Source: a virus. Taken from it: a stretch of DNA of 43,869 nt. Numbering within the stretch: the stretch's first letter is position 1; every line of letters starts with the position of its first letter. Positions 1 through 43,869 of the stretch are shown piece after piece. A program made the position numbers and the translations under genes. The notes under the pieces are model-generated. The model worked only from the letters and a program-made list of their open reading frames with translations, had not been told where the DNA came from and did not search any database. The stretch covers positions 1 through 43,869 of IMG/VR virus record IMGVR_UViG_3300024520_000149; one strand, written 5' to 3'.

Positions 1-167
1 TGAGGTCATACTAAGTAAATATACTAATACTAAACAAGGGGATTAACTGCGTTATTACTATTGAGTGCCAGCTCATACTCTAGTAGATTCTATCAACATT
101 CCAACCTCCCCACGTTTTCTTGGTTTTGTACTTGCGCCCTAACTTTTTACCTAGGTCGTAAGCCATG

Positions 168-422
168 TTAGACAGCGGGGATTTTAGGCGGTACTCTTCT
201 CTTAAAATTTTTGTATGCTCCCCTTTTTGTATGCTCCCCTATTTCCATGCCTAGCACTTTCTTGTATCCAGCAGAGTTCTTTAGATGAGCACTACGACCT
301 TTTGGTTTTTCGCCGTGTTCTACTATAAGTTTTGCAGTTTGTGCCAACTCTATTAGCTTGACACTCTCTTCTGTACTCTCCGCCTGCGCCACAACTAGAT
401 TATTTTGCATTGCATACTTCAT
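168..422 (-). CDS. hypothetical protein, 84 aa
   Basis: I do not recognise this small basic protein. It starts MKYAMQNNLVVAQAESTEES and has a predicted helical N-terminal half and a Lys/Arg-rich C-terminal half. Its ATG overlaps the stop of the upstream 39-aa gene (ATGA), so it is translationally coupled within the leftward operon. A tandem 16-nt repeat lies in its 3' part (about 209-241). The copy at 43229-43396 keeps the first 38 or so residues, but a 182-nt deletion shifts the frame and gives a different, shorter C-terminus, so only the N-terminal part seems constrained. Confidence 0.65.
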   Translation of the reverse strand: MKYAMQNNLVVAQAESTEESVKLIELAQTAKLIVEHGEKPKGRSAHLKNSAGYKKVLGMEIGEHTKRGAYKNFKRRVPPKIPAV

Positions 423-538
423 ACTTCTGCATGTTTACTGTTAAGCTCGTCTAACGCTTGTCGAACCTCCTCGATAGGGAGGTGTTTGTTAGCTTCAAAG
501 TATTCTGCTATCGCCACATTTTTGTCTGTATCATTCAT
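419..538 (-). CDS. small hypothetical protein, 39 aa
   Basis: This reading frame encodes MNDTDKNVAIAEYFEANKHL and onward, ending KHAEV. It is supported by the diverged copy at 43393-43506, which keeps the pattern IAxxFEANK..P(I/L)EEVR.xLD(E/D)..SKHAEV. Conservation at the protein level despite nucleotide changes indicates a real gene. It is a helical acidic peptide of unknown function, and its stop codon overlaps the start of the next gene leftwards. Confidence 0.7.
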   Translation of the reverse strand: MNDTDKNVAIAEYFEANKHLPIEEVRQALDELNSKHAEV

Positions 539-573
539 GGTTAGAAGTATATTCATTAGTTAAAATAAGTCAA

Positions 574-720
574 CTACTTATTAATATACCTCCTAATGAA
601 GTAGGAGATCGATTGTGGACTTTTCTTTAGAACCCTAGCTATATCTACGTTCTTGACACCCGCTCTTTTCATAGCTCTGATGCGATCTATTACTCGTAGT
701 TGTACTGGACGACCCATCAT
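574..720 (-). CDS. small helix-turn-helix DNA-binding protein, 48 aa
   Basis: The protein starts MMGRPVQLRVIDRIRAMKRA and continues with a segment (VKNVDIARVLKKSPQSISYFI) resembling a single helix-turn-helix: a first helix, a turn and a recognition helix with SPQSISYFI. It is very basic. The second copy (43581-43727) is almost identical, ending IKK instead of INK. A role as transcriptional regulator of the divergent early region is inferred from the fold and the position. An alternative start is the second Met (717). No repressor-sized regulator was found elsewhere. Confidence 0.75.
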   Translation of the reverse strand: MMGRPVQLRVIDRIRAMKRAGVKNVDIARVLKKSPQSISYFIRRYINK

Positions 721-756
721 TCACATTATTATATAACTTCTTTCAAAGAAAGCAAC

Positions 757-1002
757 TTACTTTGTGTAAGTTAGAACCGTGTAGGTTCCAATGAAGACAC
801 CTAGCGCGTACATAAAGACCCCCAGTGTTCCGTAGCGGGCGATGTTCTGAATGATTGAAACGATTATCAACATACTTACCATTGTTTCTATGAACATCAG
901 ACTCGCTGCAAGACTGGGACTCTTGTGTGAGATAGCACGAATACTCGCAGCTCCGATGGCTGCGATGATAACTCCCCCCATTAAGTAAAAGAATAATTCC
1001 AT
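757..1002 (-). CDS. small integral membrane protein, 81 aa
   Basis: The product begins MELFFYLMGGVIIAAIGAAS and has three hydrophobic stretches: residues about 3-21, 35-52 and 58-77. They are separated by short polar turns (ISHKSPS, NIARYG). The open frame extends upstream, but that extension overlaps the preceding gene in another frame and reads as Arg-rich nonsense, so the internal ATG at 1002 is chosen. A partial second copy (43764-43869) confirms the C-terminus. It could be a holin or another early membrane effector; nothing in the sequence decides this. Confidence 0.7.
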   Translation of the reverse strand: MELFFYLMGGVIIAAIGAASIRAISHKSPSLAASLMFIETMVSMLIIVSIIQNIARYGTLGVFMYALGVFIGTYTVLTYTK

Positions 1003-1437: not shown

Positions 1438-2030
1438 ATGACTAGTGCGATAATCAAAACTGTATCTTACGTTGGACGCGGAACAGCACTAGTCATTAGT
1501 TCCGTTTCCAACATAGGGTGCAGTTTTTTTAATACCCGCGCTTAACTGTGTGGGTTTTGTGTGTTCTTTGAAGGGAGTGTGTCATTTAACACGCTATAAG
1601 GGAGGGGATGATATAGCCCCCGACGTTGTACACACTCCCTTCAGAGAATACACACAGTTCATTAGTAAAGTTGAGGTCGTTGGAGAACCATTCAATCTTC
1701 GGATTGGGGTCGGCCAACTCCCGTGACCTCTACCTTGCTAATAAGCAAGATAATTCGATTAATAGTTGCAAGTGATGGTATCTTTTTCTCTTAGGAGTTT
1801 TTACACCATCAAAGTATCAGTACGGTGGATTGTGCTACATAGATGTCTTGGGAAGACACACTAGGCTGATGTTAAGAGGATGTGGGGTTAAGGTCCCCGA
1901 CCGCTGGTTCCGAAAGGAGGGATACTTGCAACGAAAGGTTAATGCCAGCCGACCTAACTTTTTTGATACATATTACCGCCGTTGTCTTACGGTGGAGGGA
2001 TAGTTTTATCTAACCTTTGAGGGGTAAATT
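1438..2030 (+). ncRNA. large structured RNA candidate with pseudoknot
   Basis: This stretch of about 650 nt without a plausible gene is dense in paired segments on the plus strand. Helices: 1438-1448 with 1486-1496 (11 bp, perfect); 1471-1484 with 1499-1512 (13 of 14), which crosses the first helix and so makes a pseudoknot; 1457-1463 with 1521-1527; 1534-1541 with 1548-1555; 1571-1582 with 1630-1641 (12 bp, perfect), extended by 1559-1570 with 1642-1655; 1673-1678 with 1725-1730; 1773-1779 with 1805-1811; 1887-1895 with 1951-1958; 1976-1982 with 1989-1995. Small stems capped by a cUUCGg tetraloop (1693-1706) and a GAAA tetraloop (1908-1919) favour the plus strand. Known large phage RNAs (GOLLD, ROOL) are possible relatives, but I cannot assign a family. 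Confidence 0.6.
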
Positions 2031-2246: not shown

Positions 2247-2581
2247 AAAAACAGAGTAAGAAAAAGAGGAAAGAACAAGCGAGAAGGGGCAGTCTAATAA
2301 AAGACAGGTCTGAAACCAAAGTAGCTTTTAAGAAGTTGGTTCAACTTGATAGGCGTTTTTACGAAGAAAACACTCGCATTTACCTTCAAAAGCACAAAAT
2401 GGATTGGGACAACCTCCAAGACAACAAGTGTCCGCAATGTGAGTGCCAGTTAATTAAAGAAGAAAAGCTATTTATCTGCAAACATCCCGAATACACAGGC
2501 TACCTGAAACCCTTTAGGACTTCTCCTAAAAAACTAAAAAAGATTCAACAAGAATATGAAACTAATACACGGAGACAGTAA
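2243..2581 (+). CDS. zinc-ribbon protein with basic N-terminus, 112 aa
   Basis: The first 25 residues are almost all Lys, Arg and Gln, suggesting nucleic-acid contact. A zinc ribbon, CPQCEC followed by a second Cys and His (FICKHPEY), lies around residues 63-83, and the C-terminus is again Lys-rich. The start codon overlaps the previous stop, and the 3' end overlaps the methyltransferase start by 26 nt. I do not recognise a named family. Confidence 0.7.
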   Translation: MKKQSKKKRKEQARRGSLIKDRSETKVAFKKLVQLDRRFYEENTRIYLQKHKMDWDNLQDNKCPQCECQLIKEEKLFICKHPEYTGYLKPFRTSPKKLKKIQQEYETNTRRQ

Positions 2582-4235
2582 CGAAGAACTACTCAAGATT
2601 ACGGGAGTAGACACAATAATAACCGACCCGCCATACGGCCTCTCTTTCATGGGTAAGAAGTGGGATTACGATGTTCCCTCGGTACAGTTTTGGAAAGTGG
2701 CACTAGCAAGTTGTAAACCTGGAGCTACCGCACTTGTCTTTGCAGGTAGTAGAACCTCACACAGAATGGCATGTAACATGGAAGACGCAGGGTGGATTCT
2801 AAAAGACACTATCATGTGGTTATATGGCTCAGGATTTCCTAAAGCTACTGATATAAGTAAGCAGTTTGATAAGACTCAAGGGTTAAAAAGGACAGGGATA
2901 ATTAAGACAGACGGAAGTGGCTCTGGTGAAATAAGAACAACAAGTGATAGAGAACGCCAACTAGAAACCACTTACGAAACAGGAGAGCCAGTATCAGACG
3001 AAGCAAAACTATGGAACGGCTGGAAATCACACGGTCTTAAACCAGCCTACGAACCTATCATAGTAGCCATGAAGCCTAATGATGGTACTTACGCCAACAA
3101 CGCCCTTAAACATGGTGTGAGTGGTTTGAATATAGATGGTGGGAGGATAGGGATGAGTGAAGAAGATTATAAAAAAAGCAGTCGTCCTAATTTTGATGGA
3201 ACAGACAAAACTACTGATGGTGATAGTGTTTTTGGAACTACATACATGAGGGGTGAACTAAGTAAACAAGGTAGATTCCCAGCAAATTTATTGTTGTCGT
3301 GTGAGTGTGAAATGCCAAAATCCCGTCAACATAGTGCGGAAAACTCCACACCACTCGGGGATTCTGGTCTTGTTACCCAAGAGTATCACGAAGAGAACTG
3401 CCCAGTCAAGATGTTAGATGAGCAGAGTGGGGAAAGAAAAGGGTGGGCTGGTCAAAATCACAGCAATTTTAATCCTTATGGAGGTAACGCACTACAAGAA
3501 AGCAAGACTGAAAGAAGTGGCTATCACAAAGGTTTCAACGACAAGGGTGGGGCGAGCAGATTTTTTTATTGTGCGAAAAGTTCAAAACGTGAACGAAACA
3601 ATGGGCTTGACTGTACCCTTACCGTCAAGTACAATAGTGGTATATGCAAAGAAGACAATATGGTAGCGGTTCAGTTACTAAAAAAGGTTACATACGATAC
3701 GGAAACCGTGAGTTTCAACATAGACGAGTCTGGCGAAAACATCATGGCGCTGTGCCACAAGGATTCTTTATCTACCATATTAACCACGACAAACAAGACA
3801 ATAGAATTGAAAACCTTGAACTCGTTACGGCACTTCATCACAAGCGGATTCATTCAGGGTGCGAACTCCGAGGTGGAGAGTGGTGGAAGCCCTGCCGAAA
3901 GTGTGGAGAGTTTAAGCAAGTGGCTACTGACTACTACAAACGGAAATCAGGAATCAGCCCGTGGTGTAAGCAATGCTGTATTAGAAATGCTGTTGACAAT
4001 AAAATACGAAGAAAACTGGAGTCCACTGACAAACATACATAGTACAGTTAAACCCCTAGCCCTTATGGAATACTTAGTTAAACTCACAGCCACCCCCACT
4101 GGTGGTACTGTCCTAGACCCCTTTATGGGAAGCGGAACCACGGGCATCGCTTGTAAGAACCAAGGTAGAGACTTCATAGGAATTGAGCTAGACGAGGAGT
4201 ATTATGAGATTGCTAAAGCACGAATCGGCATATGA
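2556..4235 (+). CDS. beta-class DNA methyltransferase with an inserted HNH-coding segment
   Basis: The N-terminal region holds motif IV, TDPPYGLSFMG (around residue 24). The C-terminal region holds HSTVKP, then DPFMGSGTTG (motif I) and FIGIELDEEYYEIA. This IV-before-I order is that of beta-class N6-adenine or N4-cytosine methyltransferases. The conserved block FFYCAKSSKRERNNGLD (about 336-352) normally lies a short linker away from the NxHPTVKP block, but here about 140 codons intervene. That stretch reads as low-quality Ser/Thr/Leu-rich sequence and exactly contains a 132-codon HNH gene in another frame. The methyltransferase frame stays open throughout, so the enzyme may still be made with a long inserted loop. 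It could modify phage DNA against restriction. Confidence 0.88.
   Translation: MKLIHGDSNEELLKITGVDTIITDPPYGLSFMGKKWDYDVPSVQFWKVALASCKPGATALVFAGSRTSHRMACNMEDAGWILKDTIMWLYGSGFPKATDISKQFDKTQGLKRTGIIKTDGSGSGEIRTTSDRERQLETTYETGEPVSDEAKLWNGWKSHGLKPAYEPIIVAMKPNDGTYANNALKHGVSGLNIDGGRIGMSEEDYKKSSRPNFDGTDKTTDGDSVFGTTYMRGELSKQGRFPANLLLSCECEMPKSRQHSAENSTPLGDSGLVTQEYHEENCPVKMLDEQSGERKGWAGQNHSNFNPYGGNALQESKTERSGYHKGFNDKGGASRFFYCAKSSKRERNNGLDCTLTVKYNSGICKEDNMVAVQLLKKVTYDTETVSFNIDESGENIMALCHKDSLSTILTTTNKTIELKTLNSLRHFITSGFIQGANSEVESGGSPAESVESLSKWLLTTTNGNQESARGVSNAVLEMLLTIKYEENWSPLTNIHSTVKPLALMEYLVKLTATPTGGTVLDPFMGSGTTGIACKNQGRDFIGIELDEEYYEIAKARIGI
3644..4042 (+). CDS. HNH homing endonuclease nested in the methyltransferase gene
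   Basis: This 132-aa product is read in a different frame from the methyltransferase around it. It has the HNH_3-type core: RRVWRKHHG, an IYHINHDKQDNRIENLELVT block with the catalytic His and Asn pattern, then HHKRIHSG. A four-Cys zinc element follows (CRKCGEF ... CKQCC). The stop codon TAG sits inside the codons for His-Ser of the HSTVKP motif, so the insert ends flush with conserved host-gene sequence. It is probably a mobile homing endonuclease whose target is the uninterrupted methyltransferase gene. An intron is an alternative I could not confirm. Confidence 0.85.
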   Translation: MQRRQYGSGSVTKKGYIRYGNREFQHRRVWRKHHGAVPQGFFIYHINHDKQDNRIENLELVTALHHKRIHSGCELRGGEWWKPCRKCGEFKQVATDYYKRKSGISPWCKQCCIRNAVDNKIRRKLESTDKHT

Positions 4236-4435
4236 AACTACCACCACTATCTAAATTCAAAGTAGACACTAGAGAAGAACATATTATCTTAGGGGAAGAA
4301 CTTTCTGAATATTACAAGAAGAACTTGTATTGGGTAGCGTGGAAGTACCGTGTTAAGGATATAAAAGAGAAGTTTCTTGAATTAAAGAAAGCGGGGGACA
4401 AAGAGTTCAAACATTTAATGCAGAAACTAAAATGA
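4232..4435 (+). CDS. hypothetical protein, 67 aa
   Basis: A small helical, Lys/Glu-rich protein of unknown function. It overlaps the methyltransferase stop by 4 nt and the next start by 4 nt. Its last codons (HLMQKLK and stop) and the following start context are repeated 553 nt downstream, on the other side of the MetRS-fragment gene, implying that the latter was inserted exactly at this gene boundary. Confidence 0.65.
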   Translation: MKLPPLSKFKVDTREEHIILGEELSEYYKKNLYWVAWKYRVKDIKEKFLELKKAGDKEFKHLMQKLK

Positions 4436-4436
4436 A
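4411..4436 (+). repeat. direct repeat flanking the MetRS fragment, left copy
   Basis: This 26-nt segment matches 4964-4989 at 23 of 26 positions. It covers the last codons of the 67-aa gene, its stop codon and the overlapping ATG of the next gene. The right copy has the same role in front of the NinG-like gene. Confidence 0.85.
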
Positions 4437-4962
4437 ACGCAAAATCAAGCGCAGAGTCAACACTGGAACAGACGCAACACGTTACTTACTTTTGCGTCAC
4501 ATCCACCCAGCGGATGATACGGATATAACTTGGGAGCGTCTTGACGAGTGGTATACTGCCAATTTGGTTAATGGTCTTGGGAACTTTATTGCGCGGGTCA
4601 TGAAAATGGCTGAGTCTAATCTAGACGACCCTGTTTTTGTGGATGACACAGAAAGGAACGAAAGGTTAATCCTAACCACAGGCTTGGGAAACCTGATTGA
4701 AGAGTTTAAATTTAACGAAGCTTTAGACAAGATTTGGGGGGAGATATCAGAGGCAGACAAAGAGATAGAAACCAAAAAACCTTATAGGTTGTTAAAGAGC
4801 AACCCAGAAGAAGCTAAGGAGATAATTAGGGGTCTTGTAAAGAAGTTACACAGAATCGCTGTCTTGTTGGAGGCGTTCATGCCGGACACTTCTCAGATAA
4901 TTTACCAAGCGATAAGGGAAAACAGGAAACCAGATAATTTATTTCCCCGTTTGGGGGAGTGA
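4432..4962 (+). CDS. methionyl-tRNA synthetase anticodon-binding domain fragment, 176 aa
   Basis: The sequence aligns by eye with the C-terminal all-helical anticodon-binding domain of MetRS: GTDATRYLLLRHI at the start (the segment just after KMSKS in full enzymes), TANLVNGLGNFIARVMKMAE, FNEALDKIWGEISEADK, AVLLEAFMPDTSQ and a terminal LFPRLGE. The catalytic Rossmann domain, with HIGH and KMSKS, is absent. Stand-alone, it cannot activate methionine; it could bind tRNA-Met or interact with host MetRS. Near-identical 26-nt direct repeats flank it, marking an insertion. It is tightly coupled (ATGA) to the upstream gene, so it is expressed. The family identification is strong; the function is inference. 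Confidence 0.85.
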   Translation: MKRKIKRRVNTGTDATRYLLLRHIHPADDTDITWERLDEWYTANLVNGLGNFIARVMKMAESNLDDPVFVDDTERNERLILTTGLGNLIEEFKFNEALDKIWGEISEADKEIETKKPYRLLKSNPEEAKEIIRGLVKKLHRIAVLLEAFMPDTSQIIYQAIRENRKPDNLFPRLGE

Positions 4963-16210: not shown

Positions 16211-16573
16211 ATGAAAGAAGAAGTAAAAATAGGAGGCGTTGTATACGTTCCAAAAAGTGAAGTTAAAGCGGGTGCAAAAAAGAAAAAGAACATGAAGTAC
16301 GTGATTGTCCGCACTTACTCAGCGGGTGTGTTTGCAGGGTACTTAGAAGAGCGTACTGGCAAGGAAGTGATTATGCGAGATGCGAGGAAACTTTGGTACT
16401 GGGATGGTGCCTCAACTCTGTCGCAATTAGCAATGGAAGGTGTTTCAAAGCCAGATACATGTAAGTTTCCTTGTGAAGTAGACAAGATAGAACTATTAGA
16501 AGCTGTTGAGATTCTTGATTGTACCGAAGCCGCACGGGAGTCCATTGCTAAAGTACCTGTATGGTCGAGCTAA
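16211..16573 (+). CDS. DUF6948-like protein, 120 aa
   Basis: The central part (MKYVIVRTYSAGVFAGYLEE, then VIMRDARKLWYWDGASTLSQ, then CKFPCEVDKIELLEAVEILD and KVPVW) matches what I remember of DUF6948 proteins, small beta-rich proteins common in phages and often followed by a Gly/Ser-rich repeat gene, exactly as here. Function unknown. Family name from memory. Confidence 0.7.
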   Translation: MKEEVKIGGVVYVPKSEVKAGAKKKKNMKYVIVRTYSAGVFAGYLEERTGKEVIMRDARKLWYWDGASTLSQLAMEGVSKPDTCKFPCEVDKIELLEAVEILDCTEAARESIAKVPVWSS

Positions 16574-16815
16574 CCAATAATGTGATGCGTGGCTCTGGCT
16601 CTGGCTCTGGCTCTGGCTATGGCGATGGCTCTGGCTCTGGCTATGGCTCTGGCTCTGGCGATGGCTCTGGCTATAGCGATGGCTATGGCTCTGGCTATGG
16701 CTATAGCGACGGCGATGGCTCTGGCTCTGGCTATGGCTATGGCTCTGGCTATGGCTCTGGCTATGGCGACGGCGACGGCGACGGCTCTGGCTCTGGCTCT
16801 GGCTATGGCGATTAG
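16561..16815 (+). CDS. Gly/Ser/Tyr/Asp repeat protein, 84 aa
   Basis: After MVELTNNVMRG the protein consists only of Gly alternating with Ser, Tyr or Asp. It is encoded by hexanucleotide units GGCTCT, GGCTAT, GGCGAT and GGCGAC. It overlaps the DUF6948-like gene by 13 nt, the pairing known from other phages. A second frame through the same repeat (Met-Ala-Leu repeats, from 16589) is equally open, so the coding frame rests on the gene context. The protein is likely disordered or phase-separating; the repeat is prone to slippage. Confidence 0.6.
   Translation: MVELTNNVMRGSGSGSGSGYGDGSGSGYGSGSGDGSGYSDGYGSGYGYSDGDGSGSGYGYGSGYGSGYGDGDGDGSGSGSGYGD
16590..16812 (+). repeat. tandem hexanucleotide repeat
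   Basis: About 37 consecutive units of GGC followed by TCT, TAT, GAT, GAC or AGC. The G-C-rich strand composition is unlike the flanking AT-rich sequence. Unit order is irregular, pointing to ongoing expansion and mutation. Confidence 0.95.
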
Positions 16816-16827
16816 TAATTAAGAGAC

Positions 16828-16995
16828 ATGAATATGGAAAACATATGTGATTACGGAAAGTTTGACCAAAATGAAGAAAAGTGTACCAACAAAGCATTTC
16901 ATGTATGTATGTGTTGCGGTAGTAATATATGTTACCCGCACCAAGATAGAAACACCTGTCCCTACGGCGGCATGGGAATGATTGAAATAATTTAA
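16828..16995 (+). CDS. small Cys/His-rich zinc protein, 55 aa
   Basis: The frame begins MNMENICDYGKFDQNEEKCT and contains HVCMCCGSNICYPHQDRNTC; seven or more Cys and two His resemble a B-box or AN1-like compact zinc fold. Function unknown. Confidence 0.6.
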   Translation: MNMENICDYGKFDQNEEKCTNKAFHVCMCCGSNICYPHQDRNTCPYGGMGMIEII

Positions 16996-32386: not shown

Positions 32387-34126
32387 ATGGCGAAATTAAA
32401 ATTAGCACAAGGAGTTGACTTTGACCTACCAGAAGTGGGAGAAGTTTTCACAAGTTCGGCAGGGACACAAGGGCAGCTTTTTCTGCGAACTGAGAATCAG
32501 GGGATTGTAACATTCGACCCAGGTGGCGCGGGAGCTTCCCAAACGGGGGCGCGGTTACAGCAAGCCCAAGATGTGCTCGGTGGGCAGAGTGTTAGGAATC
32601 TAAACCTTGGTGACGTGCTACAGGGTTTGAACCTTACCACTGGTCAAAACCAAAGGAGTGTTGCCTCTACCGACGACCTCTCTCTTTTCAAACCTACTGG
32701 GGTGCAAGAAGGTGGAGAAGTTTTCACGCAGCAGATTTCAGCACTCAACCCACAAGCTGCTGACATCGTCTCTAACAGAACCGGAATAGTACAACAAGCT
32801 CAAGTCCCCACTGCTCAAGCTCAACAAGCTCAAGCTCAAGGACAACAGGTGGCTGCTCCTCAGAGTCAACAAGACTTCGCAGGAGTCCAAGCACCAGATG
32901 CAGGCTTTCAAGGAACTGAACAGTTAGCCCAAGCTACACAACAACCCTTAGCCTCTCAACAAGCAGGAGGACAACCGCTAGACCCATTCTCACCAGAAGG
33001 AGCTACTCAGATAGCAGAGATAGCAGGACAAGCTCTTTCGCCACAACAACCACAACAAGCCATCTTTGGTCCCTCTAGTTATCAAGGTCCGTCTGTAGTT
33101 GACTACTTAAGCTCAGTTGGACAAGCTAACGACTTTGGTTCTCGTTCAGAACTTGCAAGGAACTTGGGTATAACAAACTACACTGGGACAGCAGACCAGA
33201 ACACTAGAATGTTAGAACTTTTAAGAAGTGGTGCTCAACCTCAACAAATTATCCCTCAAGCATCACCAGGAGAATCTCTTTCTCCAATCCAACAACAGCA
33301 AGTTTTAGGAACTACACTAACCAACTTAGGAGGTGAACAGCAGTCCTTTACAGACGCGTTCGTTTCTAATCCTGATGACACTCTCAAACAATTCGCTTCA
33401 GCTATCTTCGAGAACTCAGGACTACCAGAATTACGCGCACAGATAAAGTCTAACGCAGAAGAAACAGAAGCTTTGGAGAACGACAGAGATACACAACTAG
33501 CCGAAATAAATGACAATCCTTGGATTTCAGAAGCTCTTAGAAGCCGTCAAGTACAGAAACTAAACGCAGAGTTTGACGGTAGGCTAAATAACCTCAACAA
33601 CAAACAGATAAGGCTCAATGCTCTTTCAGACGACATCACAGAAGAAGCGCGGTTTAACCTCACCATGGCAGTAGGTCAATTCAATGCTCAGAGAGAGTTC
33701 GACTACAACAGAATTCAAGACATTATGGATAGGCAGGACAGTTTGTTACAAGCAGAACGAGATGAGTCATTCAGGCAGGACTCGTTGTCACTGGATAGAC
33801 AACAAGAAAACAGAATAGCTTCGGGTGGGGGTGGAGGAGCGTTTACTGGGGCAAGCACTTCTTCGTTTGAGCAGGTGTTGGATGGTTTTACTTCTCTTTC
33901 CGAGCTCACACCTACAAACTTGGCTGAAGTCAAAGGACAGCTTTTCGCTAGCGGGTTTGGTTCGGATACACCACCTGATTGGTTCAGAGAGTTCATTCAA
34001 CAAGAGTTGCGTCAAAACTTAATACCAAGTGCTCTCAAAGCTGAGTGGTTGAAATACCGTGATTCTGTTCTTAGTGGACAATCCTCAGTAGGGGGGTCGG
34101 GTACTTTAGATTTTGATGCCTTATAA
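32387..34126 (+). CDS. Gln/Ala-rich internal virion or tail protein, 579 aa
   Basis: After a short beta N-terminus, residues about 130-290 are very rich in Gln and Ala (QQAQAQGQQVAAPQSQQ, AGQALSPQQPQQA). The remainder is helical coiled coil (SNAEETEALENDRDTQLAEI, DYNRIQDIMDRQDSLLQAER) with a Gly-rich hinge near 480. This is the style of podovirus internal core or ejection proteins. Followed by the 943-aa ejection-like protein. Confidence 0.65.
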   Translation: MAKLKLAQGVDFDLPEVGEVFTSSAGTQGQLFLRTENQGIVTFDPGGAGASQTGARLQQAQDVLGGQSVRNLNLGDVLQGLNLTTGQNQRSVASTDDLSLFKPTGVQEGGEVFTQQISALNPQAADIVSNRTGIVQQAQVPTAQAQQAQAQGQQVAAPQSQQDFAGVQAPDAGFQGTEQLAQATQQPLASQQAGGQPLDPFSPEGATQIAEIAGQALSPQQPQQAIFGPSSYQGPSVVDYLSSVGQANDFGSRSELARNLGITNYTGTADQNTRMLELLRSGAQPQQIIPQASPGESLSPIQQQQVLGTTLTNLGGEQQSFTDAFVSNPDDTLKQFASAIFENSGLPELRAQIKSNAEETEALENDRDTQLAEINDNPWISEALRSRQVQKLNAEFDGRLNNLNNKQIRLNALSDDITEEARFNLTMAVGQFNAQREFDYNRIQDIMDRQDSLLQAERDESFRQDSLSLDRQQENRIASGGGGGAFTGASTSSFEQVLDGFTSLSELTPTNLAEVKGQLFASGFGSDTPPDWFREFIQQELRQNLIPSALKAEWLKYRDSVLSGQSSVGGSGTLDFDAL

Positions 34127-40434: not shown

Positions 40435-40552
40435 TGGTAACCCCTTTCTGGCTGAACTTGATGCCAGCCGTTAAATAAAGATTTCTCTGTACTTAACGCC
40501 GTGTACCAACCAACCTACCTAATTCGTTGTATCCTAAGCTACTATTCTCGAA

Positions 40553-40581
40553 TTGTTGTTTTCTTGTAGCCCACCTACAAT
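40553..40581 (+). promoter_or_regulatory. candidate promoter of the giant structured RNA
   Basis: TTGTTG (40553-40558), 17-nt spacer, TACAAT (40576-40581). The predicted start, around 40588, lies 20 nt before the first long helix. The -35 box is weak, so this is tentative. Confidence 0.35.
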
Positions 40582-40587
40582 TGCTTT

Positions 40588-41637
40588 TGCAATAATTTCC
40601 GTTTTGCGGTGGGAATGATGTAGCCTAGCAGTGTGTGACACACTATACCTAGATATCCGATATTTTTTAGGGCTATGATAAGTCACTTAGCCTCGGACAC
40701 GCATACCGCGGAAACGTCTAGCCGCTACATCATTCCTACAACAACCTTTAAGGGTTGGGTGGGTACTGGCTGCTCGATTGTCTTTCGACTGAAACAGCGG
40801 ATACCCACCCAACTCTCGATAACTCTCTGAATGTAGGAGGCAAGGATTATGTTATACCTAGAATAAATCCTTGCATGGTGGCGCAAACTACATTTGTAAT
40901 TCATTTTACCACCGTACCACCTGTTTCCTCCGCCGAGGTGCCAAGTGTGCCTTATAGCCGTTTGCGGGGGCGATTATTCAGCCACTCCTACATTCAGAAA
41001 ACTATCTCTGAAACAAATAGGGGTAATCACTCACCCCTATCTTCAGCTTCTATTTTTTCTTGTAGAAGCCTTGTCCTCCAACAGTGGAATTTCCTTCTTC
41101 CTATTCTTATGAAGAAGTTGTCTAAGGCTATCTCTAGTCTTGACCACCACACACTGTTGTCGGCATTACGACTTACTCTTGAGCAGCACATCTCGTCAAG
41201 TGAACCCCCCAGGAGGTTAAGTATGCGAGAGGCAGACATAAGAAGTTGTCGCATTCTTTCCTCCTATGTTTAGAGTGGGATATTGCTACCCCACTCGTGT
41301 TACCTAGAGGGACAAACCTCAAGAGCCAAAGAGTTTTGCGCGCCTCTTATGACCGTTGGTGTGTCTTAATCGCCCAAGGACAGACAGCCAGCTCGAAGAT
41401 GTGGTTTTGTTGTTGCCATTGCAATAAGCAAAAATTGCAACACCAATAATGTACAAAACCAACAACAACGCTCTTGACGTGCATGCCTTCTTCGTCGATT
41501 TTTCTTCCACACAGAGCATTTGAACACTTCATTTGTGCTCCTAACTGCGACACTGGTGCCGCAAGCTCCTCTCGAAAGAGAAGCCAATGAATGCATCTCA
41601 CCTATCAAGGTGAGCTTGCGGCACCAGTATCTTTTTC
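40588..41637 (+). ncRNA. giant ornate RNA candidate, about 1.05 kb
   Basis: A gene-free region with many long, mostly perfect helices: 40609-40624 with 40724-40739 (16 bp, one G-U); 40754-40765 with 40802-40813 (12 bp); 40826-40839 with 40985-40998 (14 bp) enclosing 40840-40848 with 40866-40874 (9 bp); 41017-41024 with 41033-41040; 41046-41052 with 41063-41069; 41094-41100 with 41111-41117; 41223-41228 with 41249-41254; 41273-41279 with 41290-41296; and 41552-41568 with 41612-41628 (17 bp). The last is followed by TCTTTTTC as in a terminator. A weak promoter precedes it. The plus strand is favoured but not proven. Size, complexity and phage setting recall GOLLD/ROOL-class RNAs. Confidence 0.65.
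41552..41636 (+). terminator. terminal 17-bp hairpin with T-run
   Basis: 41552-41568 pairs perfectly with 41612-41628; inside are a GAAA-capped stem (41571-41582) and a CTCACC/GGTGAG stem. ATCTTTTTC follows. Long-range stems closed by a T-run can end transcription, and the helix may also protect the RNA 3' end. Confidence 0.55.
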
Positions 41638-41645
41638 AATGAGCT

Positions 41646-41677
41646 AAAAACAAAACGCACCATAGTAGGTGCGCTTT
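41646..41677 (-). terminator. terminator of the leftward operon
   Basis: CGCACC (41656-41661) pairs with GGTGCG (41668-41673); on the minus strand it is followed by TTTTGTTTTT. It closes the leftward operon just after its last small frame. Confidence 0.85.
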
Positions 41678-43000: not shown

Positions 43001-43165
43001 TTACAAACTTATTAAAACTGCTAATGCCATTGACGACGATATAGCTGAAGCTATCACAAATGTTTCTATTTGTTCCCTCTCGGTTTCCCCCTTCTTCCCG
43101 AAAAACTTTACAGAAACCATAAAAGAAATCAAGAAAACTATGGCTGCGATTACGACTGAGGTCAT
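43001..43165 (-). CDS. small two-helix membrane protein, 54 aa
   Basis: MTSVVIAAIVFLISFMVSVK followed by a charged loop (FFGKKGETEREQIETFVIAS) and a second hydrophobic helix (AISSSMALAVLISL). The first codons are also present at positions 1-9, where the contig starts. Function unknown; holin-like layout. Confidence 0.6.
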   Translation of the reverse strand: MTSVVIAAIVFLISFMVSVKFFGKKGETEREQIETFVIASAISSSMALAVLISL

Positions 43166-43228
43166 ACTAAGTAAATATACTAATACTAAACAAGGGGATT
43201 AACTGCGTTATTACTATTGAGTGCCAGC

Positions 43229-43396
43229 TCATACTCTAGTAGATTCTATCAACATTCCAACCTCCCCACGTTTTCTTGGTTTTTCGCCGTGTTCTACTAT
43301 AAGTTTTGCAGTTTGTGCCAACTCTATTAGCTTGATACTCTCTTCTGTACTCTCCGCCTGCGCCACAACTAGATTATTTTGCATTGCATACTTCAT
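43229..43396 (-). CDS. shortened variant of the 84-aa gene, 55 aa
   Basis: Same N-terminal region as 168-422 (one substitution, S-V to S-I near residue 22), then a frameshifted tail RKRGEVGMLIESTRV produced by the 182-nt deletion. It shows that the C-terminal half of this protein is dispensable or variable. Confidence 0.6.
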   Translation of the reverse strand: MKYAMQNNLVVAQAESTEESIKLIELAQTAKLIVEHGEKPRKRGEVGMLIESTRV

Positions 43397-43506
43397 ACTT
43401 CTGCATGTTTACTACTAATGTCATCTAAGACAGCTCGGACTTCCTCAAGAGGACGATTCTTGTTCGCTTCAAAGAAGTCTGCTATTTCTTCTGCTTTTGT
43501 TGTCAT
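43393..43506 (-). CDS. diverged copy of the 39-aa gene, 37 aa
   Basis: MTTKAEEIADFFEANKNRPL followed by EEVRAVLDDISSKHAEV. Compared with 419-538, substitutions are mostly conservative, evidence of protein-level selection. Confidence 0.65.
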   Translation of the reverse strand: MTTKAEEIADFFEANKNRPLEEVRAVLDDISSKHAEV

Positions 43507-43513
43507 AGTGATT

Positions 43514-43544
43514 AGTTAATTGTTCTAAAAAGGAACAATTAACT
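43514..43544. promoter_or_regulatory. 12-bp perfect hairpin, present only in the second copy
   Basis: AGTTAATTGTTC (43514-43525) pairs with GAACAATTAACT (43533-43544), 7-nt loop. It lies between two leftward genes. Could be an operator or a transcript processing site; absent from the first copy, so it is not essential. Confidence 0.4.
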
Positions 43545-43580
43545 ACTTGGAAACCTATCATAGAACTTAAAATAAGTCAA

Positions 43581-43727
43581 CTACTTTTTAATATACCTCC
43601 TAATGAAGTAGGAGATCGATTGTGGACTTTTCTTTAGAACCCTAGCTATATCTACGTTCTTGACACCCGCTCTTTTCATAACTCTGATGCGCTCTATTAC
43701 TCGTAGTTGTACTGGACGACCCATCAT
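43581..43727 (-). CDS. copy of the small helix-turn-helix gene, 48 aa
   Basis: Nearly identical to 574-720; nucleotide changes are few and mostly silent. See that entry for the domain. Confidence 0.7.
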   Translation of the reverse strand: MMGRPVQLRVIERIRVMKRAGVKNVDIARVLKKSPQSISYFIRRYIKK

Positions 43728-43763
43728 TCACATTATTATATAACTTCTTTCAAAGAAAGCAAC

Positions 43764-43869
43764 TTACTTTGTGTAAGTTAAAACCGCGTAAGTCCCAATG
43801 AAGATACCTAGTGCATACATAAAGACCCCCAGCGTGCCGTAGCGGGCGATGTTCTGAATTATTGAAACG
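43764..43869 (-). CDS. copy of the 81-aa membrane protein gene, partial
   Basis: C-terminal part of the same membrane protein as 757-1002, cut by the contig end. The third hydrophobic segment and the YTVLTYTK-type end are retained with substitutions. Confidence 0.65.
   Translation of the reverse strand, partial: VSIIQNIARYGTLGVFMYALGIFIGTYAVLTYTK

Follow-up and report, generated by a model that had tools for sequence, protein, structure and literature searches.

A strongly structured RNA leader at the start of a phage early operon, most likely a switch acting in cis

The stretch of DNA analyzed here (the window), a single IMG/VR virus record of 43,869 bases, contains a real and strongly structured leader where its rightward early operon begins, most likely a switch acting in cis. 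Its structured portion, of about 310 nt (positions 1438-1746, + strand), consists of long hairpins that abut one another, and the RNA is predicted to begin with a segment complementary to the loop of the first hairpin. The function that we infer, with a probability of roughly 0.45, is that of a 5′ leader of the rightward early transcript that would operate during transcription as an attenuator or antiterminator.

The leader lies in a 654-base gap. On one side the gap is bordered by a leftward gene for a DUF397-like protein (1050-1382, − strand), and on the other by the rightward early operon, which starts at 2037. Up to position 4962 (+ strand), the early genes encode a zinc-finger-like protein of 69 aa, a protein of 112 aa, a DNA methyltransferase (2556-4235), a protein of 67 aa, and a protein of 176 aa (4432-4962) resembling the MetRS anticodon-binding domain. 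The latter is a stand-alone protein that matches methionyl-tRNA synthetase in this domain only; encoded 3′ of the leader in the same operon, it is a possible candidate for an RNA-binding partner. The window TerL is of the Terminase_6N/phrog_38 kind, and the portal protein is SU10-type. The two ends of the window (1-862 and 43157-43869) are 89-100% alike and differ in length, which reflects either a circular or permuted genome whose ends overlap and vary between strains, or a duplication in tandem. Short tandem repeats with spacings of 12 and 18 bases are present at 16554-16853.

A promoter-like site (1403-1431, + strand; TGAACA-17-TATTAT, with TG before the −10 element) precedes the leader and predicts a transcription start (+1) at about 1438. 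Its agreement with the consensus is modest (9 of 12 positions), and chance alone would supply about two such sites (2.2) in the 1.4 kb covered by the scan. The hairpins follow the predicted +1 and are located 5′ of the genes that start at 2037. A first-pass annotation of this DNA was right to place a structured RNA on the + strand ahead of the rightward early genes, beginning where a promoter would set the start.

Extent and strength of the structure

The same annotation had described at least nine helices in a segment of roughly 590 nt. Taken whole, 1438-2036 folds better than 100 dinucleotide-shuffled versions, with z about −7.5 on either strand. This excess is confined to 1436-1750 (z −9.86, + strand), and in the remaining noncoding gap (1747-2036) folding of the + strand does not exceed chance (z +0.15), the − strand value being −2.6. 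Control stretches within genes gave z +0.8. The helix-rich description therefore holds for about half of the segment. On a measure neutral to strand, four ungapped inverted repeats score above 11, compared with 0.08 per shuffle. Codon scoring of the open frames on both strands of the segment found none that is convincingly coding, the best being near 0.

Structure is distributed over four parts of the + strand, the first of which (1436-1532, z −6.4) contains hairpin H1, described below. It is followed by hairpin h (1534-1555; z −4.5 for 1528-1557), an 8-bp, terminator-like stem with TTTT after it. Hairpin H2 (1558-1654; z −8.8 for 1556-1656) has arms at 1558-1582/1630-1654 with 23 Watson-Crick, 2 G-U, and 0 A-C pairs and encloses an internal hairpin. 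Hairpin H3 (1657-1746; z −3.9 for 1655-1748) has arms at 1657-1685/1718-1746 with 21 Watson-Crick, 4 G-U, and 2 A-C pairs. The switch model proposed here does not account for H2 and H3, the other long hairpins of this leader. Of the two stable tetraloops initially reported, the cUUCGg loop at 1698-1701 caps the inner hairpin of H3, whereas the GAAA hairpin at 1906-1921 is weak, with a pairing probability of 0.26.

The minimum free energy (MFE) model closes a large domain through a weakly supported long-range helix (1661-1683/1945-1967, + strand), which ends in T6 (1960-1965) and competes with H3. Its duplex energy is reached by 1 of 1,000 shuffles, for two segments that were both picked post hoc. 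We do not rely on this domain, because a model with H3 imposed is only 4.7 kcal/mol less stable, polymerase completes H3 200 nt sooner, and folding in the 3′ half is no more stable than expected. A terminator formed by this helix was dropped as the main reading, given the competition from H3 and the chance-level folding of the 3′ half.

The report of a second large structured region in this phage was confirmed. It occupies 40440-41660, the − strand giving the best reading (z −10.3 for 40440-41300), with long hairpins in a row at 41631-41549, 41006-40818, 40816-40751, and 40744-40604. This region matches no Rfam family and shares no sequence with the early leader.

Competing pairings at the 5′ end, in the window and in related phages

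The predicted 5′ end of the transcript, segment A (ATGACTAGTGC; 1438-1448, + strand), is perfectly complementary to the loop of hairpin H1 (1456-1527, + strand). The arms of H1 (1456-1484/1499-1527; 23 Watson-Crick, 4 G-U, and 1 A-C pairs) enclose a loop of 14 nt, most of which is filled by the partner of A, segment A′ (GCACTAGTCAT; 1486-1496, + strand). All 11 of the 11 A:A′ pairs are Watson-Crick, and a match of 11 nt to the loop was reached by 1 of 20,000 shuffles of the 35-nt flank. Within the DUF397-like gene, GCACTTGTCAT at 1273-1283 matches A′ at 10 of 11 bases; A′ could pair with the leftward mRNA at this place, or the match may be due to chance.

Two crossing helices, 1438-1448/1486-1496 and 1471-1484/1499-1512, had been read as a pseudoknot. 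Both exist, the second being the inner part of the longer H1 stem, but they are unlikely to form together in full. The connecting loops appear too short for coexistence: the 11 pairs would have to be bridged by 2 nt (1497-1498), and the stem of 27 to 29 pairs by 7 nt (1449-1455). By this geometric estimate, A:A′ and H1 are probably mutually exclusive alternatives. The idea of one independent RNA of about 590 nt with a pseudoknot thus gives way to about 310 nt of abutting hairpins, at the start of which two pairings appear to exclude each other.

A run of seven T residues (T7; 1524-1530, + strand) comes directly after H1. Together they may constitute an intrinsic terminator, which would yield an RNA of about 93 nt. 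The strength of this putative terminator is uncertain because the base of H1 that adjoins T7 is rich in G-U pairs. A terminator scan did not list H1, the loop of which is larger than the limit of that scan. In simulated folding of the growing chain, A:A′ was complete at about nt 59 (−19.7 kcal/mol); H1 overtook it from about nt 77 (position 1514) and was complete by nt 92 (−35.7 kcal/mol).

We found no homologue of the leader sequence by DNA similarity in phage and plasmid records or related virus records, and comparison of the flanking proteins and the translated RNA frame with viral contigs gave no relative containing this region. A single 41-nt match among 379 genomes from the phylum of a Patescibacteria metagenome-assembled genome (L223) was judged to be a chance match in apparently coding sequence. 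We also considered the interleaved order A-B-A′-B′, in which B and B′ are the hairpin arms. It occurs 36 times in 10.4 million shuffled strand-bases and 10 times in 1.22 million real ones. At this chance rate the pattern is not diagnostic alone, and its placement at the start of an early transcript is the notable part. An occurrence in L122, adjoining an integrase gene, was rejected as an attP region, and a match in L113/G010 was rejected because it falls within an open frame.

Two related phages, G007 and G415, have the same layout in the same place with unrelated sequence, namely, an early promoter, a 5′ segment A, a long hairpin, and A′ in its loop. Of the relatives whose early region is assembled, G007 (L017/L018) is the closest, and its TerL is 78% identical to that of the window. 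Its divergent early promoter (TTGACA-16-TATTAT, − strand, 1889-1862) matches the consensus at 11 of 12 positions and predicts a start at about 1855, inside its segment A (TATATGGATAAAG), which is complementary to the loop of its hairpin. This hairpin (1837-1806/1778-1747) has 26 Watson-Crick, 4 G-U, and 0 A-C pairs, and its 3′ arm contains the ATG of the gene for a DnaD-like helicase loader. G415 (L232) was found by a search with the DnaD-like loader of G007 and has a TerL match with an E value of 6.7e-144. Its segment A (CTTGCGAGCA), located 3′ of leftward genes, has its complement in the loop of a hairpin (19 Watson-Crick, 2 G-U, and 0 A-C pairs) that abuts the ATG of its own DnaD-like loader gene; 2 of 20,000 flank shuffles reached this flank-loop match. 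Growing-chain folding gave the same order of events in both relatives, first A:A′ and then the long hairpin. We also compared with shuffles the energy of the structure that forms early and is then broken; it was reached by 1 of 60 shuffles for the window, 0 of 40 for G007, and 10 of 40 for G415, so that the switching energy of G415 is not unusual.

Among about 55 long hairpins in about 24 related and control sequences, flank-loop complementarity of at least 10 nt was found only in the leaders of the window and G007. A shorter version (7 to 9 nt) is present in L227, L228, and L229, where 102 to 553 of 20,000 shuffles did as well. Reading these sequences side by side reveals one compensatory pair, GGGC..GCCC in L227 and L228 being GGGT..ACCC in L229. 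L225, L231, and most other leaders of DnaD-like genes have no flank-loop pairing above chance. These comparisons were designed after the window had been seen and provide three strong leader cases only. In G415 a second hairpin with flank-loop complementarity (L253; 10973-11040; flank ACGGCTAG, loop CTAGCCGT; 2 of 20,000 shuffles) occupies a gap among late genes and is closely followed by a 264-aa open frame.

Other explanations for the structured leader

An open frame of 35 codons (ATG..TAA; 1438-1545, + strand; putative leader peptide MTSAIIKTVSYVGRGTALVISSVSNIGCSFFNTRA) has its ATG exactly at the predicted +1 and extends across A, H1, and T7 to a stop codon inside hairpin h. If this leaderless frame were translated through H1 and T7, the movement of the ribosome could decide whether H1 forms, as in leader-peptide attenuation. 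Leader frames of 26 codons from the predicted +1 in G007 and of 30 to 33 codons overlapping the DnaD-like start codon in G415 and L227/L228 are consistent with such a mechanism. The segment also shares with amino-acid leader attenuators its alternative hairpins, a T-run, and the possible short frame, and it bears a weak resemblance to Leu_leader (RF00512). However, that resemblance reaches 26.1 bits against a gathering score of 50, and unlike Leu_leader the segment has neither a run of leucine codons nor a biosynthetic operon directly downstream. In addition, the leader peptides differ between phages, the codon score is neutral, the L229 frame ends differently with one T missing, and open frames of leader length are not rare. 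We consider leader-peptide attenuation unlikely, and prefer a switch operated by the RNA itself.

It is similarly doubtful that the hairpins belong to a stand-alone noncoding RNA, or to processed hairpin RNAs, with its own 3′ end and a role in trans that has nothing to do with regulating the genes downstream. Long abutting hairpins, together with the larger structured region on the − strand (40440-41660), would suit this explanation, as would an array in a related phage. In G005 (L019; 12750-11860, − strand), about five abutting hairpins carry a GGUGGUAAU..CAGUUACU motif, and two of them hold permuted tRNA-like T-arm/capped acceptor/D-arm modules. This array, which was not called by Rfam, is directly 5′ of a TROVE plus Ro60-vWA gene and beside tRNA genes, and is likely a phage-borne array of Y RNAs (YrlA-like). 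The window leader resembles it in its abutting hairpins, but 1438-2036 lacks both the motif and the tRNA-like modules, and the Ro-binding motif GTAA..TTAC, which G005 has, does not occur in 1436-2036. Y-RNA, tRNA-like T-arm, and Met-anticodon motifs were sought in the segment and none was found, and no TROVE/Ro60 match was present among the window proteins scanned. When the window, the segment, and the relatives were compared with Rfam, no family passed its threshold for the segment or the related leaders. Like ROOL and GOLLD, the segment is a large structured RNA in a phage, but it differs from them in having no Rfam match, only about 310 structured nt, and no tRNA genes in the window, whereas ROOL and GOLLD often have tRNA genes nearby. 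The stand-alone hypothesis is also opposed by the absence of sequence-level relatives. Moreover, the equivalent place in G007 and G415 holds only a leader of about 100 nt beside the first gene, and no large RNA. The A-B-A′-B′ layout at the early promoters of relatives, in unrelated sequence, argues for a leader acting in cis rather than for an ornate stand-alone RNA.

Inverted repeats in a divergent intergenic region might instead be operator sites or part of a replication origin, i.e., a DNA-level element. DnaA-box-like TTATCCACA sites do occur near promoters in the early regions of G009, G007, and G005, but this region of the window contains no site of that type. Segment A is not palindromic, and exact copies of it are absent elsewhere in the window. 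We also counted wobble pairs on the transcribed strand, where G-U and A-C pairs number 4:1 in H1, 2:0 in H2, and 4:2 in H3 of the window, 4:0 and 4:0 in the G007 stems, and 2:0 and 2:0 in the G415 stems. Altogether there are 22 G-U and 3 A-C pairs (binomial probability, 7.8e-5), GT and AC mismatches having been given equal weight in the scoring. This strand bias favors selection on RNA over a DNA element, which we regard as quite improbable. G009 (L110) has a structured gap of its own (32681-33501, − strand; z −9.6) upstream of a methyltransferase operon, with several hairpins of 14 to 21 bp, one of them ending in a T-run, with TTATCCACA sites, and with the promoter TTGACA-16-TATAAT.

That the hairpins are insertions or remnants devoid of regulatory function, their likeness to those of G007 and G415 being coincidental, would agree with the lack of sequence homologues and with only three strong leaders from comparisons chosen post hoc, but is very improbable in light of the small shuffle probabilities at the same predefined place in three related phages, the strand-biased wobbles, and the strong fold excess.

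The proposed switch and its possible significance

In the cis-acting switch that we favor, the outcome would be decided when RNA polymerase reaches T7 (1524-1530). The enzyme would then hold 10 to 14 nt of RNA, and A:A′ and the partial H1 would be about equally stable. Having formed first, A:A′ would tend to persist, so that H1 would come into play late as a terminator and transcription would by default continue into the early operon. Freeing or covering the 5′ end, by a terminated H1 RNA of about 93 nt acting in trans, by a protein, or through slow transcription, would lead to more termination. With its A′ exposed, the terminated RNA could occupy segment A on the transcript made next, resulting in feedback or in an immunity like that of P4 CI RNA. 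In the two relatives, G007 and G415, a start codon takes the place of the T-run, within the late hairpin or directly beside it, and the output there would be translational.

The closest working analogue is antisense-controlled termination of the P4/IsrK type. In satellite phage P4 (CI RNA and the seqA-seqC immunity) and in prophage Gifsy-1 (IsrK), complementary segments of an untranslated operon leader, one of which can exist as a short RNA, decide between termination and read-through (PMC4825925). The window likewise has complementary segments, A and A′, in one early leader, and H1 with T7 would give a separable RNA of about 93 nt. In contrast to P4 CI RNA, A is the 5′ end itself, A′ is the loop of a 27-pair hairpin, and there is no Rfam match; the C4 antisense RNA-type family did not match the segment at the Rfam gathering score, nor at E values up to 10. 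A replication gene was not recognized directly downstream in the window, where a zinc-finger-like protein, an unknown protein, and a methyltransferase are encoded, but is present in G007 and G415 as the DnaD-like loader gene. We use P4/IsrK as an analogy, claim no membership, and regard action in trans as putative.

HK022 put RNA offers a second comparison. It is about 70 nt long, has two stem-loops and sequence common to putL and putR, and binds the zinc-binding domain of the RNA polymerase β′ subunit (PMC9378689). The put element suppresses distant terminators. As in HK022, a structured RNA is found just 3′ of a phage early promoter and might favor read-through of terminators, a resemblance that is positional only. 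Several hairpins follow the window promoter, their sizes and sequence differ from those of put, and flank-loop complementarity is not a put feature.

Tentatively, and with rather more doubt than we attach to the switch in the window, these leaders may represent a recurrent class of phage RNA switches set by topology and not by sequence. In such a class, the first 10 to 13 nt of the transcript would pair with the loop of a hairpin of 20 to 32 pairs located a few nucleotides later. The two pairings would be exclusive, and the 3′ arm would carry the output, a T-run or a start codon. In finished RNAs the exposed loop may also act in trans, as a sequence-specific signal of self-recognition that differs between phages.

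The present case separates the reading of a giant structured RNA into a supported part, of 310 nt, and an unsupported part. If the topological class is real, leaders of the same shape and unrelated sequence at early promoters of related phages would make up a class of regulatory RNAs that searches by sequence or covariance miss, and the pair formed by the loop and the 5′ end of each phage would be a specificity code for early-gene control or superinfection immunity.
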